From Thiohalobacter sp. IOR34 (GTDB lineage Bacteria > Pseudomonadota > Gammaproteobacteria > Thiohalobacterales > Thiohalobacteraceae): a DNA stretch of 64,000 bases. Position numbers and translations under genes: made by a program. The notes beneath the pieces are model-generated. The model did no database searches. It was not told the origin of the DNA and saw nothing but the letters and a program-made list of their open reading frames with translations. Numbering within the stretch: position 1 is the stretch's first letter; each line of letters starts with the position of its first letter. The DNA lies in contig NZ_CP128988.1 in NCBI RefSeq assembly GCF_030406045.1, forward strand, positions 469,438 to 533,437, given 5' to 3'. Of this stretch, positions 15,795-59,127 are shown in pieces.

Positions 15795-15980
15795 AGTCAG
15801 AAGTCAGAAGTCAGAAGTCAGAAGTCAGAAGTCAGAAGTCAGAAGTCAGAAGTCAGAAGTCAGAAGTCAGAAGTCAGAAGTCAGAAGTCAGAAGGGCGGG
15901 CAGTGCCCGCCCTTCTAGTTCCGAGCTTCTAGCTTCTAGCTTCGAGCTCCTAGCTCCTAGCTCCTAGCTCCTAGCTCCTA
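15795..15980. repeat. Heptanucleotide tandem repeats around a palindrome
   Basis: About 14 nearly perfect copies of AGTCAGA (15795-15894) are followed by the palindrome GGCGGGCAGTGCCCGCC. Then come about eight copies of a second heptamer (AGCTTCT changing to AGCTCCT) up to ~15980. It has no coding sense. The same architecture, more degenerate, occurs at 59024-59127. It occupies most of the prmC-prfA spacer. Confidence 0.9.
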
Positions 15981-20311: not shown

Positions 20312-20905
20312 ATGAGCGGATTGTGCCGTCTTTTCCGAGCGGAGTTGTGGCTGCTGGCGCTGCTGCTGGGCGGCTGTAGCCTGAGCCCGCCGCAGCCCGT
20401 TTCCGCCTGGTCGCCACCGGCCTGGCCTGCCTGGCAACTCGAGGGGCGGATTGCGCTGACGGCTGGCGAGCAGGGCTGGCATGCCGGCCTCTTGTGGCGT
20501 CAGGACCGCGAGCGCTATCGATTGCGCCTCTCGGGGCCGTTCGGCCAGGGGGCGCTGCTGCTGGAGGGCGACGCCGGGGGCGTGGTGCTGCGCGAGGCCA
20601 ACGGCCGTGAGCAGCGCGCCTCCGACGCCGAGGCCCTGCTCTATCGGACCACCGGCTGGGAGCTGCCGCTCGCCGGCTTGCGCTACTGGGTGCGGGCGCA
20701 GGTGCAGCCGGGTCTGCCCTTCGAGCTGCAGCGGGATGCCATGGGCCGTCCGCTCAGGTTGCGCCAGGGTGGCTGGCGGATCGACTACCGCCGCTATCGC
20801 CGCTACGGCGACGGCGAGCTGCCGGCGCTGATCCGGCTCAGCACCGATGGGGTGAGCGTCCGGCTGGTGATCGACGACTGGCGCCGCCTGGAGGCCGGGG
20901 CATGA
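20312..20905 (+). CDS. lolB: Outer-membrane lipoprotein receptor LolB
   Basis: 197 aa. The N-terminal signal ends in a lipobox (LLALLLGGCSLSPP). The mature part has the LolB beta-barrel elements: WQLEGRIALTAGEQGWHAGLLWRQ and YRLRLSGPFGQGALLLEGD, then WVRAQVQPGLPFE. LolB accepts lipoproteins from periplasmic LolA and places them in the outer membrane. The conserved lolB-ispE-tRNA-Gln-prs order supports the call. The stop overlaps the ispE start by 4 bases. Confidence 0.92.
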   Translation: MSGLCRLFRAELWLLALLLGGCSLSPPQPVSAWSPPAWPAWQLEGRIALTAGEQGWHAGLLWRQDRERYRLRLSGPFGQGALLLEGDAGGVVLREANGREQRASDAEALLYRTTGWELPLAGLRYWVRAQVQPGLPFELQRDAMGRPLRLRQGGWRIDYRRYRRYGDGELPALIRLSTDGVSVRLVIDDWRRLEAGA

Positions 20906-21747
20906 GTCTGCCGCAACGCTGGCCGGCGCCGGCCAAGCTCAATCTCTTCCTCCACGTCACCGGGCGCCGGCCGGACGGCTACCACGAGCTGCAGACCCTG
21001 TTCCAGTTCCTCGATTTCGGTGACGAACTCCGCTTCCGCCTGCGACCGGATGGCCAGGTGCTGCGCAGCGCCGCCCTGGCCGGGGTGAGCGCGGAGGCGG
21101 ACCTCTGCCTGCGCGCGGCGCGCCGCCTGCAGGCCTTGGCCGGCGTGAAGGCCGGGGTCGAGATCACGCTCGACAAGCGTCTGCCGATGGGGGGCGGGCT
21201 GGGCGGTGGCAGTTCCGACGCGGCCACCGTGCTGCTGGCCCTGAACCGGCTGTGGGGCTGCGACCTGACGCTGGACGAGCTGGCACGGCTGGGCCTGGAG
21301 CTGGGGGCGGACGTGCCGGTATTCGTGCGCGGCCGGGCCGCCTGGGCGGAGGGCGTCGGTGAGCGGCTGGAGCCGGTCGAGCTGCCGGAGCCCTGGTACC
21401 TGGTGCTGGTGCCGTCCGTCAGCGTCTCGACGGCGGGGGTCTTCTCGGCGCCGGAATTGACACGTGATAGCCGCCGAATCACAATAGCCGACTTTCTTTC
21501 GGGCGCGGGGCGCAATGACTGCGAGCCCGTGGTCCGGGCCCGCTACCCCGAGGTGGCGCGGCTGCTCGACTGGCTGGGACAGCGTGGCGAGGCCCGTCTG
21601 ACCGGCACCGGTGGCTGTGTCTTCGCCGCCTTCGACAGCCGCGAGGCGGCGGAAGGCGTGAAGGCCGAACTGCCGCCCGCGTGGTCCGGCTTCGTCGCCA
21701 GGGGCTGCAACCGCTCGCCGCTGTACCGGGCGCTGGAAGAGGCCTGA
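20902..21747 (+). CDS. ispE: 4-diphosphocytidyl-2-C-methyl-D-erythritol kinase
   Basis: 281 aa, a normal length for this GHMP kinase of the MEP isoprenoid pathway. The N-terminal WPAPAKLNLFLHVTGRRPDGYH is diagnostic. The ATP-binding glycine-rich loop is PMGGGLGGGSSDAAT near residue 95, and LTGTGGCVFAAF near 233 is the third GHMP motif. The TGA is directly followed by the first unit of the 213-bp tandem array. This pathway supplies the prenyl side chains of quinones. Confidence 0.96.
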   Translation: MSLPQRWPAPAKLNLFLHVTGRRPDGYHELQTLFQFLDFGDELRFRLRPDGQVLRSAALAGVSAEADLCLRAARRLQALAGVKAGVEITLDKRLPMGGGLGGGSSDAATVLLALNRLWGCDLTLDELARLGLELGADVPVFVRGRAAWAEGVGERLEPVELPEPWYLVLVPSVSVSTAGVFSAPELTRDSRRITIADFLSGAGRNDCEPVVRARYPEVARLLDWLGQRGEARLTGTGGCVFAAFDSREAAEGVKAELPPAWSGFVARGCNRSPLYRALEEA

Positions 21748-21802
21748 GCCGGCCCGTGGTTTGCTGAGAGGTTGAGGCGACCTGCATATCGGACAGTTTT
21801 AT

Positions 21803-21953
21803 TGGGGCGTCGCCAAGCGGTAAGGCACTGGTTTTTGGTATCAGCATTCGCAGGTTCGACCCGAGCGCGGAGCGCGAGAGAACGGCGCAGCGCAGCGGAG
21901 CCGGCCCCGAAGGGGTGAGGGCCGCAGGCCCGAATCATCCTGCCGCCCTGGCC
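21803..21953 (+). pseudogene. Interrupted tRNA-Gln copy 1
   Basis: The first ~59 bases match the intact tRNA-Gln, including the TTG anticodon. After GCAGGTTCGA in the T loop a ~77-bp insert intervenes before ATCCTGCCGCCCTGG. The acceptor 3' strand ends CTGG rather than CCAG, though wobble pairing would still be possible. As written it would not give a normal tRNA. Confidence 0.75.
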
Positions 21954-22015
21954 GGCGCGAGCCGGCCCGTGGTTTGCTGAGAGGTTGAGGCGACCTGCAT
22001 ATCGGACAGTTTTAT

Positions 22016-22166
22016 TGGGGCGTCGCCAAGCGGTAAGGCACTGGTTTTTGGTATCAGCATTCGCAGGTTCGACCCGAGCGCGGAGCGCGAGAGAACGGCG
22101 CAGCGCAGCGGAGCCGGCCCCGAAGGGGTGAGGGCCGCAGGCCCGAATCATCCTGCCGCCCTGGCC
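22016..22166 (+). pseudogene. Interrupted tRNA-Gln copy 2
   Basis: Identical in appearance to copy 1, displaced by exactly 213 bases. The same T-loop insert and the same altered acceptor end are present. Confidence 0.75.
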
Positions 22167-22228
22167 GGCGCGAGCCGGCCCGTGGTTTGCTGAGAGGTTG
22201 AGGCGACCTGCATATCGGACAGTTTTAT

Positions 22229-22379
22229 TGGGGCGTCGCCAAGCGGTAAGGCACTGGTTTTTGGTATCAGCATTCGCAGGTTCGACCCGAGCGCGGAGCG
22301 CGAGAGAACGGCGCAGCGCAGCGGAGCCGGCCCCGAAGGGGTGAGGGCCGCAGGCCCGAATCATCCTGCCGCCCTGGCC
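22229..22379 (+). pseudogene. Interrupted tRNA-Gln copy 3
   Basis: Third copy with the same T-loop insert and altered acceptor end, 213 bases after copy 2. The next unit is the intact gene. Confidence 0.75.
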
Positions 22380-22441
22380 GGCGCGAGCCGGCCCGTGGTT
22401 TGCTGAGAGGTTGAGGCGACCTGCATATCGGACAGTTTTAT

Positions 22442-22516
22442 TGGGGCGTCGCCAAGCGGTAAGGCACTGGTTTTTGGTATCAGCATTCGCAGGTTCGAAT
22501 CCTGCCGCCCCAGCCA
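22442..22516 (+). tRNA. tRNA-Gln (anticodon TTG)
   Basis: 75 nt including an encoded CCA. Acceptor strands TGGGGCG and CGCCCCA pair, the anticodon arm CTGGTTTTTGGTATCAG presents TTG, and the T arm GCAGGTTCGAATCCTGC is intact. It is the only complete copy in the array and precedes prs. Confidence 0.96.
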
Positions 22517-22550
22517 AACACACAAAACGACAGCCCATCGAGGTTCCCAA

Positions 22551-23510
22551 GTGCCCGACAGAAACGGCCAGATGATGGTGTTCGCGGGGAATGCCAACCC
22601 GCAGCTCGCGCAAAGCATCGTCGACCACCTTCGGCAGCCGCTGGGCAAGGCGGTGGTGGGGCGCTTCAGCGACGGCGAGGTGATGGTCGAGATCATGGAG
22701 AACGTCCGCGGCAAGGACGTCTTCATCGTGCAGCCGACCTGCGAGCCAACCAATGACAACCTGATGGAACTGCTGGTCATGGTGGACGCGCTGCGGCGTT
22801 CATCGGCCGGTCGGATCACCACGGTGATCCCCTATTTCGGCTATGCCCGCCAGGACCGCCGGCCGCGCTCGGCGCGGGTGCCGATCACCGCCAAGGTGGT
22901 GGCGGACATGATCGGCAAGGTGGGCGCCGACCGGGTGCTGACGGTCGATCTGCACGCCGACCAGATCCAGGGGTTCTTCGACATCCCGGTGGACAACGTC
23001 TATGCCTCGCCCATCCTTCTCGGCGACATCTGGCGCCAGAAGTACCCCAACCTGATGGTGGTGTCGCCGGACGTGGGCGGCGTGGTGCGGGCGCGGGCGG
23101 TGGCCAAGCGGCTGGACGACGCCGATCTGGCGATCATCGACAAGCGGCGGCCGAAGGCCAACGTGTCGCAGGTGATGCATATCATCGGCGAGGTCGAGGG
23201 CCGCGACTGCGTGCTGGTCGACGACCTGGTCGATACCGCCGGCACCCTGTGCAAGGCGGCTGCGGCGCTCAAGGCGCATGGCGCGGCGCGGGTCGCGGCC
23301 TACTGTACCCACCCGGTGCTGTCGGGGCCGGCGATCAAGAACGTGGAGAATTCGGAACTGGATGAACTGGTGGTGACCGATACCATCCCGCTGCGGGCGG
23401 AGGCGCAGAAATGCACCCGTATCCGCCAGCTGTCGATCGCGGAGATGCTGGCCGAGACCATGCGCCGCATCAGCGAGGAGGAATCGGTCAGCTCGCTGTT
23501 CATGGATTGA
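22551..23510 (+). CDS. prs: Ribose-phosphate pyrophosphokinase
   Basis: 319 aa. It makes PRPP from ribose 5-phosphate and ATP. Motifs: [10 protein letters not shown] at the N-terminus, [12 protein letters not shown] for ATP contact, [12 protein letters not shown] near residue 125 and the PRPP-binding loop [17 protein letters not shown] near 222. It starts 34 bp after tRNA-Gln, in the common gammaproteobacterial order, and rplY follows. Confidence 0.96.
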
Positions 23511-56850: not shown

Positions 56851-59025
56851 ATGCCCGATTCCGACTCCCCTGCCGAACTGAGCGCCGCCCTCGATGGCGC
56901 ACGGCGTCGCGCCGCCGCGGCCGGTCACCGACTGCCGGTGCTGATCGCCGGCGGGGCGGACGACTGCCGGCGGCAGGCGCAGGCGCTGCTGGCCGGGATG
57001 ACGGGGCAGGCGCTCGCCTGGTATGGCGGCGAGGCGCCGTCCCAGGTGCCGCAGATCGCGCCCGGCCAGGCCCGCGGCCGCCTGGGCCAGGCGCTGGACG
57101 TGCTGGTGTTCGATGCCCACCAGGGTTTCGACCCGGATGCCTTCGGGGCCCTCTGCGGGACCCTGCGGGCGGGTGGTCTGCTGTTACTGCTGACGCCGCC
57201 GCTGGAGACCTGGCCGGCACGGCCCGATCCGGCCTGTGCGCGCATCGTGCCCGCGCCCTTCGGTATCGCCGATGCCGGTGGACGCTTCCTGCAACGCCTG
57301 GTGCGCCTGATCCGCAGTGAGCTAGGGCTGATGCGGATCGAGGACGGCCGGGTACTGCGCCTGCCGGCGCTCCCGGCGCCGGCTCAGGCCGCGGCGCCGG
57401 TGGATGATGGCGACTGCCTGACGGCGGATCAGCAGCAGGCCGTGGCCGCCGTGATCCAGGTTGCCCACGGCCATCGGCGCCGGCCGCTGGTGCTGGTGGC
57501 GGACCGTGGCCGCGGCAAGTCGGCCGCCTTCGGCATCGCCGCGGCGCGGCTGTTGCGCGACGGATTGGAACGGGTCCTGGTCACCGCCCCCCGCCCGGCG
57601 GCGGCGGAGGCGGTTTTCGAGCAGGCCGCGCGACTGCTGCCTGGGGCGGTCGGCAGCGGCGGGCGGCTGGAATGGGAGGGCCGGGTGCTTGAATTCGCTG
57701 CCCCGGATGCCCTGCTGCGAAAGCCACAGCAGGCGGGTCTGCTGCTGGTCGACGAGGCGGCCGCCATTCCCACGCCCATGCTCAGCGACCTGCTGCAGCG
57801 CCATGCGCGCATCGCCTTTGCCACCACGGTGCATGGCTACGAGGGGACGGGACAGGGGTTCAGCCTGCGTTTCGCCCGGGTGCTCGATCGCCGCACCCCT
57901 GGTTGGCGGCGGCTGGAGCTGCGTGATCCGGTCCGCTGGCAGGCGGGCGATCCCCTGGAGGCCTTCGTGTTCCGCGCCCTGCTGCTGGATGCGGCGGCCG
58001 CGCCCGGGGATGAGCTGGCGGCCGGCAGGCTCGGGCCGGTGGAACGGCTGTCGCAGGACGAGCTGGCCGCCGACGAGGCGCTGCTGGGCGAGGTGTTCGG
58101 GCTGCTGACCCTCGCCCACTACCGGACCCGGCCCTTCGATCTGCGCCAGCTGCTGGATGCCCCCGGTCTGTCCGTGTTTGTGCTGCGCAGTAACGGCCGA
58201 GTGGCGGCCACGGCCCTGCTCACCACCGAGGGTGGCTTCGATGCCGACACCGCCCGGGCCGTCTGGCTGGGCGAACGCCGGCCTCATGGTCACCTGCTGG
58301 TCGAATCCCTGGCCGTTCACCTGGGATTGCGTGAGGCGCCGGAACGGCGGGCGGCGCGCATCCTGCGTATCGCCGTCCATCCCGCGCTGCAGGGGCAGGG
58401 GCTGGGCAGCGCACTGCTTGCCGGCATCGTCGACTGGGCGCGTGAGGCCGGCCTCGACCTGCTCGGGGTCAGTTTCGGACTGACCCGGCCACTGCTGCGT
58501 TTCTGGCGCCGCGGTGGCTTTTTGCCGGTACGGATCAGCGTGCGCCGCGGAGCGGCCAGCGGTGCCCATTCGGTGCTGCTGCTGCACCCCCTGTCGCCGG
58601 CCGGCGAGGCCCTGGCCGGAACGGCGAGGGAACGTTTCGCCGTCCAGCTGCCGCAGCAGTTGGCCGATCCCCTGCGCGATCTCGAACCCCGCCGGGCGGC
58701 GGCCCTGCTCTGCGGATTGTCGCTGCGGGACACCGAATTGACGGCGGCGGACCTGGAGGACCTGGCCGCCTTCGCCTATGGGCGGCGCGCCTGTGCCTCC
58801 ACCCTTGGGCCATTGTGGCATCTGGCGCTGCGCGCCCTGTCCGATCCCGCGCTGGCGGCGCGCCTGGAGCCTGTGCTGCGCGATGCGCTGCTGGCCAAGC
58901 TGTTGCAGAAACGCGACTGGGCGTCGATCGGTGTCGTCTGCGGGGTGCGCGGTAGGGCCGAGGGGGAGGCGCTGCTGCGCCGCGCGGTGCGGCAGGTGCT
59001 GGAGGCGGGGGGCATGAGGGGCTAG
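56851..59025 (+). CDS. tmcA: tRNA(Met) cytidine acetyltransferase TmcA
   Basis: 724 aa, slightly longer than the E. coli enzyme. An N-terminal DUF1726-type domain is followed by a RecD-like ATPase: Walker A LVADRGRGKSAAFG near residue 215 and Walker B LLLVDEAAAIP near 302. The GNAT acetyltransferase domain has RILRIAVHPALQGQGLGSALL near 510. It makes N4-acetylcytidine at the wobble base of elongator tRNA-Met, a gene for which lies at 26012. The ribosome site GGGAGAG sits just after the MITE-like element. Confidence 0.95.
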   Translation: MPDSDSPAELSAALDGARRRAAAAGHRLPVLIAGGADDCRRQAQALLAGMTGQALAWYGGEAPSQVPQIAPGQARGRLGQALDVLVFDAHQGFDPDAFGALCGTLRAGGLLLLLTPPLETWPARPDPACARIVPAPFGIADAGGRFLQRLVRLIRSELGLMRIEDGRVLRLPALPAPAQAAAPVDDGDCLTADQQQAVAAVIQVAHGHRRRPLVLVADRGRGKSAAFGIAAARLLRDGLERVLVTAPRPAAAEAVFEQAARLLPGAVGSGGRLEWEGRVLEFAAPDALLRKPQQAGLLLVDEAAAIPTPMLSDLLQRHARIAFATTVHGYEGTGQGFSLRFARVLDRRTPGWRRLELRDPVRWQAGDPLEAFVFRALLLDAAAAPGDELAAGRLGPVERLSQDELAADEALLGEVFGLLTLAHYRTRPFDLRQLLDAPGLSVFVLRSNGRVAATALLTTEGGFDADTARAVWLGERRPHGHLLVESLAVHLGLREAPERRAARILRIAVHPALQGQGLGSALLAGIVDWAREAGLDLLGVSFGLTRPLLRFWRRGGFLPVRISVRRGAASGAHSVLLLHPLSPAGEALAGTARERFAVQLPQQLADPLRDLEPRRAAALLCGLSLRDTELTAADLEDLAAFAYGRRACASTLGPLWHLALRALSDPALAARLEPVLRDALLAKLLQKRDWASIGVVCGVRGRAEGEALLRRAVRQVLEAGGMRG

Positions 59026-59127
59026 GAGTCAGGAGTCAGAAGTCAGAAGTTAGGGGTCGGGGTCAGAAGTCGGAAGCAGGGCGGGCACTGCCCGCTCCCA
59101 TCCAGCTCCGGGCTTCTGGATTCTAAC
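59024..59127. repeat. Degenerate heptanucleotide repeat locus
   Basis: AGGAGTCAGGAGTCAGAAGT and decayed heptamers are followed by the palindrome GCGGGCACTGCCCGC and then AGCTCCGGGCTTCTGG. It is the same architecture as 15795-15980 with fewer, more mutated units. It starts at the tmcA stop. Confidence 0.75.

Follow-up and report, generated by a model that had tools for sequence, protein, structure and literature searches.

The window analysed here is a stretch of 64,000 nucleotides from the genome of Thiohalobacter sp. IOR34, and it raises the question of why several broken copies of a tRNA-Gln gene stand in tandem ahead of an intact one. An earlier reading made from the letters alone (the sequence-only reading) had described a fourfold array with a 213-bp unit: three identical-looking units, each with a tRNA-Gln broken in the T loop by a GC-rich block of about 77 bp, and a fourth with an intact tRNA-Gln. 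Three explanations had been offered: decayed duplicates, a structured mobile element that targets the T loop, or an insert that is removed from RNA.

The described layout was borne out (Table 1). The three full units did not differ from each other at any position (0/213), and the partial fourth copy of 114 nt matched them throughout its length. A full unit is made up of roughly 57 bp of upstream DNA, then 57 nt of tRNA-Gln(UUG) as far as GTTCGA, then the 77-bp block and finally ATCCTGCCGCCC, after which the sequence diverges from the tRNA. The GC content of the block is 78%, compared with 66.5% for the window. Because the genome assembly is one 2.96-Mb contig, collapse of the repeat is unlikely, and the exact copy number of the array is given as assembled. 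Runs of N were seen within repeat arrays of the draft genomes that hold L028, L038 and L109, which suggests assembler trouble there. The window also holds microsatellite-like arrays (AGTCAGA ×14, CTAGCTC ×9 and a TAGGAGTCAGGAGTCAG-type 27-bp repeat) at 15795-15894, 15915-15980 and 59023-59076.

According to ARAGORN and Rfam, the array holds one tRNA-Gln, the intact copy. The broken copies scored 19.7 bits, below the Rfam tRNA cut-off of 29, and their acceptor end is abnormal, with CGCCCTGGCCG where the intact tRNA has CGCCCCAGCCA. Lacking a normal acceptor end, these copies fall short of being whole tRNA genes into which a block was placed; the earlier description was right about the break in the T loop and incomplete about the copies themselves. 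The tRNA list of the genome contains one tRNA-Gln(UUG), which is the intact copy in the array, and one tRNA-Gln(CUG). As tRNA-Gln(UUG) is present in a single copy, one intact copy must stay.

Table 1. Features of the ispE–prs region, in positions of the window. R1 is the covariance model described in the text.
Feature	Position	Strand	Basis
ispE-like ORF, ends where array starts	20902..21747	+	named from sequence and gene order
Tandem array, 213-bp period, 3.5 copies, 100% identical	21746..22498	+	TRF and unit comparison
Unit 1 tRNA-Gln 5' body up to T-loop GTTCGA	21803..21859	+	57 nt identical to intact tRNA
Unit 1 77-bp hairpin-string block (TLR/RtT core)	21860..21936	+	R1 59.0 bits, E = 1.4e-13; Rfam RtT 37.2 bits
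P2, GCGC-GGA-GCGC, the family's variable-sequence hairpin	21865..21875	+	two-sided changes in 7/8 pairs among relatives
P3, CGGC-GCA-GC-GCA-GC-GGA-GCCG	21883..21903	+	covariation helices 2 and 3, 98-99% paired
P4, CCCC-GAA-GGGG	21905..21915	+	covariation helix 4; GNA triloop in 103/119 relatives
P5, GGGCC-GCA-GGCCC	21919..21931	+	covariation helix 5; two-sided changes in 4/4 pairs
Unit 1 12-nt tRNA 3' remnant (ATCCTGCCGCCC), divergent after	21937..21948	+	right-hand identity 12 nt
Hairpin GGCCGGC-GCGA-GCCGGCC spanning unit 1/2 junction	21950..21967	+	sequence
Unit 2 tRNA-Gln 5' body	22016..22072	+	identity to intact tRNA
Unit 2 hairpin-string block	22073..22149	+	R1 and Rfam RtT scores, unit identity
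Unit 2 12-nt tRNA 3' remnant	22150..22161	+	right-hand identity
Unit 3 tRNA-Gln 5' body	22229..22285	+	identity to intact tRNA
Unit 3 hairpin-string block	22286..22362	+	R1 and Rfam RtT scores, unit identity
Unit 3 12-nt tRNA 3' remnant	22363..22374	+	right-hand identity
Intact tRNA-Gln(UUG), CCA encoded at 22515-22517	22442..22516	+	ARAGORN; Rfam tRNA 58.9 bits
prs-like ORF (ribose-phosphate pyrophosphokinase), directly downstream	22551..23510	+	named from sequence and gene order

The 77-bp block is a covarying string of four hairpins, and the architecture GTTCGA-P2-P3-P4-P5-GARTMATCC is conserved in its family. In an alignment of 73 distinct sequences, 96.3% of the cells pair and 19 of the 21 pairs show two-sided changes. 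The covariation score was 0.603, compared with 0.159 for shuffled alignments (0/500 shuffles as high; slid controls ≤0.06). As the aligned sequences had been fitted to the model, the test leans towards pairing and is not fully independent, but its controls are strong and its margin is large. The folding energy of one unit showed no excess stability over shuffled sequence (z = 0.06 and −0.6), and the claim of structure thus rests on covariation. The tiny hairpins named in the sequence-only reading are present, and it is their covariation, not their folding energy, that supports them. GNA triloops dominate in P3 (83/119) as in P4. The counts of G-U and A-C pairs, compared as a contrast of RNA with DNA, were 35 versus 14 and 28 versus 22, in an alignment that was itself fitted to RNA pairing. 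The suggestion of decayed duplicates is correct in that the copies cannot make tRNA; however, the block keeps its covarying pairs, which is not plain decay.

We compared the block with known RNA families. At default thresholds, Rfam gave no link between the window and RtT; the link came from a permissive search, in which each window unit matched RtT (RF00391) with E = 2e-5, under the gathering cut-off of 45 bits. In the same search, the tRNA-Tyr array of the own genome reached 57.1 and 50.1 bits, and other relatives 52.8 and 49.5 bits. We also used R1, a covariance model that was built from six relatives without E. coli and that spans 10 T-loop positions, which gives it some bias towards tRNAs. 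In this reverse test, with E. coli K-12 compared as sequence stretches holding the tyrT/tyrV repeats, R1 found all four tyrT/tyrV units (E = 1.8e-11 to 1.6e-9). These repeats share the layout GGATGAGAAGC..GGTTCGAC-hairpins-GAGTAATCC-tRNA 3' end. Judged from such matches, the block is almost certainly a hairpin-string core homologous to the TLR/RtT family.

TLRs, which include the 178-bp repeats of E. coli tyrT/tyrV, have been known since 1978, and neither their function nor their mechanism was ever settled (PMC8144298). E. coli K-12 has 22 TLRs at ten loci, and 18-19 bp of their 3' end equal the tRNA or 5S gene just upstream (PMC8144298). Northern signals have been obtained for RtT RNAs in A. 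pleuropneumoniae (PMC4986893), and copy-number variation of a 175-bp unit at rtT has been listed in Salmonella (PMC2658671). In common with this family, the window array has a hairpin-string core flanked by GGTTCGA and GARTMATCC, repeats in tandem with a unit length of about 180-210 bp, and is tied to a tRNA. Its 3.5 copies with a 213-bp period agree with the TLR criterion of tandem copies linked to a tRNA gene. However, they depart from two positional criteria, a location downstream of the tRNA and 18-19 bp of the tRNA 3' end: the window units lie upstream, with the promoter side and 5' body of the tRNA and 12 nt of its 3' end, whereas the E. coli TLRs lie downstream with 18-19 bp (PMC8144298). 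If the definition is taken strictly, the window units are thus not canonical TLRs: their core is homologous and their geometry is different.

The sequence-only reading had proposed a genome search for the block at other tRNA genes, and such copies were found. Further occurrences in the own genome are a 184-bp array downstream of tRNA-Ser(GCU), a D-loop-broken copy upstream of tRNA-Ser(GGA) together with a downstream copy there, a copy beside tRNA-Ser(UGA) and the tRNA-Tyr array. At G000:C1:2053167-2053900, the immediate neighbour of tRNA-Ser(GCU) and its downstream repeat array is csrA. In the bacterial family, 8 of 11 genomes have the block, and in the class R1 matched 113 of 276 genomes, about 40% of those sampled. 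When public genomes were scanned for an exact pattern, the block turned up next to tRNAs in Thioalkalivibrio, Thiogranum, Microbulbifer, several gammaproteobacterial MAGs and one Verrucomicrobiia MAG. The host genes of the examined copies are tRNAs for Gln, Ser, Arg, Tyr, Asp, Glu, Pro, Val, His and Thr, and tmRNA. Beside tmRNA (L128:1020-1240), the left flank of the repeat unit is GGTTCA, which matches the tmRNA T loop, and not GGTTCGA.

It is also conceivable, though we regard it as unlikely, that the array is a plain tandem duplication of the tRNA gene into which a dispersed REP-like repeat happened to insert once, with no specificity for tRNAs. The same hairpin string does occur in dispersed repeats of the own genome off tRNAs (8 of 18 R1 matches), and rtT has been likened to the BIME repeats of enterobacteria (PMC2965389). 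On the other hand, tRNA genes hold the remaining 10 of these 18 matches, and a same-strand tRNA or tmRNA lies within 800 bp of 109 of the 122 examined matches, with two stereotyped junction patterns; the T-loop positions of R1 add some bias to these counts. REP and BIME repeats resemble the block as GC-rich, non-coding, multicopy hairpin strings, and related strings are dispersed in the own genome. They differ in that TLRs are linked to the T loops of tRNAs and contain pieces of tRNA, and in that a REP-type transposase shows no clearly specific association with the elements. Presence of a Y1 (REP-type) transposase was associated with the elements at an odds ratio of 2.9, compared with 2.4 for the unrelated IS110 control, and 21 element-bearing genomes had no Y1 match. 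With so similar a value for the control, the association does not look specific, and the Y1 transposase was set aside as the mover. Inspection by eye of the window ORFs at 16-28 kb revealed no recombinase.

Hairpin strings away from tRNAs were recorded in several settings. In the own genome, a dispersed MITE-like repeat carries the same string (GAC...GAGTCA) within a longer conserved palindromic context, with copies L147, L148, L149, L150, L151 and L158 (C1:387652, 552670, 598077, 2081837, 1264424 and 1029618) and others at 2524544 and 2595819. Genome G226 (e.g., L152 and L159) has 59 model matches, and most of those listed are near-identical dispersed 79-nt copies within CTCCCCCTCTCCCTCTGG...AGGGATGGGGTGAGGG; the hairpin string thus seems to be placed in loops of other palindromes as well. 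Related strings off tRNAs were also seen in L140-L143 (genomes G117 and G128), some of them right at the ATG start codons of genes, so that they are apparently translated (MTNSSGTNLD...).

Across tRNA genes, the block usually lies between GTTCGA, or its equivalent in the D loop or tmRNA, and the 3' half of the T arm, and its copies have two geometries. In downstream copies (n = 92), the 3' part of the tRNA is repeated after the block, usually over at least 18 nt and often through the trailer, and the tRNA 5' body is absent. In many of them, GGTTCGA is also preceded by a piece of the tRNA 3' end in inverted orientation. Among the 17 upstream copies, 10 have, to the left of the block, 43-73 nt of the tRNA 5' body; to its right they retain just 11-16 nt (mode 12) of the 3' part. 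This upstream class includes the window units, with the full tRNA 5' body to the left of the block and 12 nt of the 3' end to the right, whereas the downstream arrays of the own genome carry 33 nt of the tRNA 3' part, the maximum counted.

These junctions bear directly on the idea that the block is an intron-like insert which is removed from RNA, so that the broken copies would also yield tRNA-Gln. The block lies exactly in the T loop, and the flanking tRNA stems are all pairable, even if the first two acceptor pairs are only U-G and G-U. However, the window copies have an altered acceptor 3' strand and CCA, which are missing in other upstream copies, the downstream copies are without a 5' body, and the nearest known relatives are TLRs and not introns. 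Splicing is rejected because the tRNA 3' half is truncated and excision would leave no complete tRNA; what the upstream and downstream copies retain leaves this proposal with hardly any probability. Known bacterial tRNA introns are group I introns in the anticodon loop. The window block shares with them the interruption of a tRNA gene; it lies at another position, and its 3' exon is truncated. No ribozyme match for the block was found in Rfam.

We then compared orthologous tRNA-Gln loci in one bacterial family. The locus is empty in G006, G007 and G009. It holds upstream-type units in G000 (three) and G001 (one) and two downstream units each in G010 and G005; G008 has both types. Between the congeners G009, which is empty, and G010, the difference is an array with a direct repeat of about 22 nt of the tRNA 3' end, directly after which the native flank resumes. 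Since orthologous loci can be empty, of either type or of both, the elements come and go. One complete tRNA is kept at every locus examined. Of the three earlier explanations, the structured mobile element that targets the T loop is the one supported, by these loci with and without the element, and by blocks at T loops (or T-loop-derived sequence) of many tRNAs and of tmRNA.

We consider it probable overall that the array is a TLR/RtT hairpin core in the T loop of tandem promoter-side halves of tRNA-Gln, which was inserted in a way that spared the tRNA and was then tandemly amplified. That the T-loop insertion spares the tRNA is, taken by itself, a reasonably well favoured part of this reading. 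Insertion would occur at the T-loop hairpin and would supply or duplicate a piece of the tRNA so that the essential tRNA keeps working. Downstream units would provide a new tRNA 3' end, and upstream units, including those of the window, a new promoter side and 5' body. An insertion may be survivable only when a functional tRNA remains, and the two geometries may be two ways to this end. Growth to three identical units could have occurred by unequal exchange between the 213-bp repeats. A more far-reaching proposal is that TLRs are distinct tiny mobile elements, hairpin strings that enter the hairpin loops of tRNAs and always make a fresh tRNA end so that the target survives, with both geometries arising from one mechanism on a folded single strand; we offer it tentatively and think it less likely than not to hold as a whole.

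The restored tRNA could also point to small circles, each a repeat with a tRNA piece, that a tyrosine recombinase integrates at the T loop as integron-like, mostly gene-less cassettes. The units stand between direct repeats of the tRNA piece, a working tRNA is restored in the way known from integrases that act at tRNA 3' ends, and in L120 and L122 the repeats have genes between them. Elements that integrate at att sites in the 3' ends of tRNAs similarly restore the tRNA and leave a displaced 3' end; TLR units differ from them in being about 100-200 bp long and gene-less, with a tRNA piece that is that of the local tRNA. A cassette could not have moved such a piece between different tRNAs. With the piece always that of the local tRNA, its transport on a travelling circle is unlikely, and local copying of DNA during insertion or repair fits better.

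Two gene-bearing stretches near repeats were inspected. Between repeat copies downstream of a tRNA-Ser (L120:1349-6710), genes resembling HigBA, a leucine-rich-repeat protein and a MazE/AbrB-type antitoxin were recognised by eye. In L144 (2288-4440), an island at the anticodon region of tRNA-Arg separates the restored tRNA from an older repeat array; this gap was considered as an integron-like cassette, but the integration of an ordinary island at tRNA-Arg accounts for it better.

The units are probably co-transcribed with the ispE/tRNA-Gln/prs region, in which a search for promoter- or terminator-like sites gave none. By analogy with the TLRs of E. coli, whose transcription and release during tRNA processing have been reported (PMC8144298, PMC4986893), the RNA of the units may be discarded or released in tRNA processing.

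Such repeats might also be kept for a working RNA, if hairpin RNAs released from them bind CsrA (and Hfq) and thereby couple CsrA activity to tRNA transcription. GGA occurs in the P2 and P5 loops in 63/119 and 50/119 relatives, compared with 22 and 20 in shuffled loops; the complement TCC occurs there just 2 and 1 times, so that the enrichment is on one strand only. The helices are upheld by compensatory changes, and the host genome has one csrA. The related RrA, RrB and RrF RNAs of E. coli, TLRs after 5S rRNA in rrnA, rrnB and rrnD, have an 18-bp 3'-end repeat, are transcribed, and bind CsrA and Hfq (PMC8144298). However, they stand in the context of rRNA operons, whereas the window array is known from its sequence, and its units have a GGA loop only in P2. 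The P3 and P4 loops favour GAA/GCA, deletion of rrA/B/F in E. coli had modest effects only (PMC8144298), and the loci vary freely among relatives. We judge selection for such an RNA to be unlikely as the reason why the repeats are kept; by analogy, a CsrA-related role for the window array is possible but weak. We lean, with some reserve, towards the array being selfish or neutral and not the product of a selected function. The units would then be tolerated elements whose RNA may sometimes be used.

The TLR/RtT family was already known, and what is new here is the upstream, T-loop-nested arrangement that leaves one tRNA intact. For annotators, it is a warning that tRNA-like fragments near tRNA genes are often TLR-type elements, and not introns or assembly errors. 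Together, the upstream T-loop-nested variant, the empty orthologous sites, the covarying hairpins and the occurrence in about 40% of the sampled genomes of the class make a dataset that is able to separate selfish insertion from RNA function.
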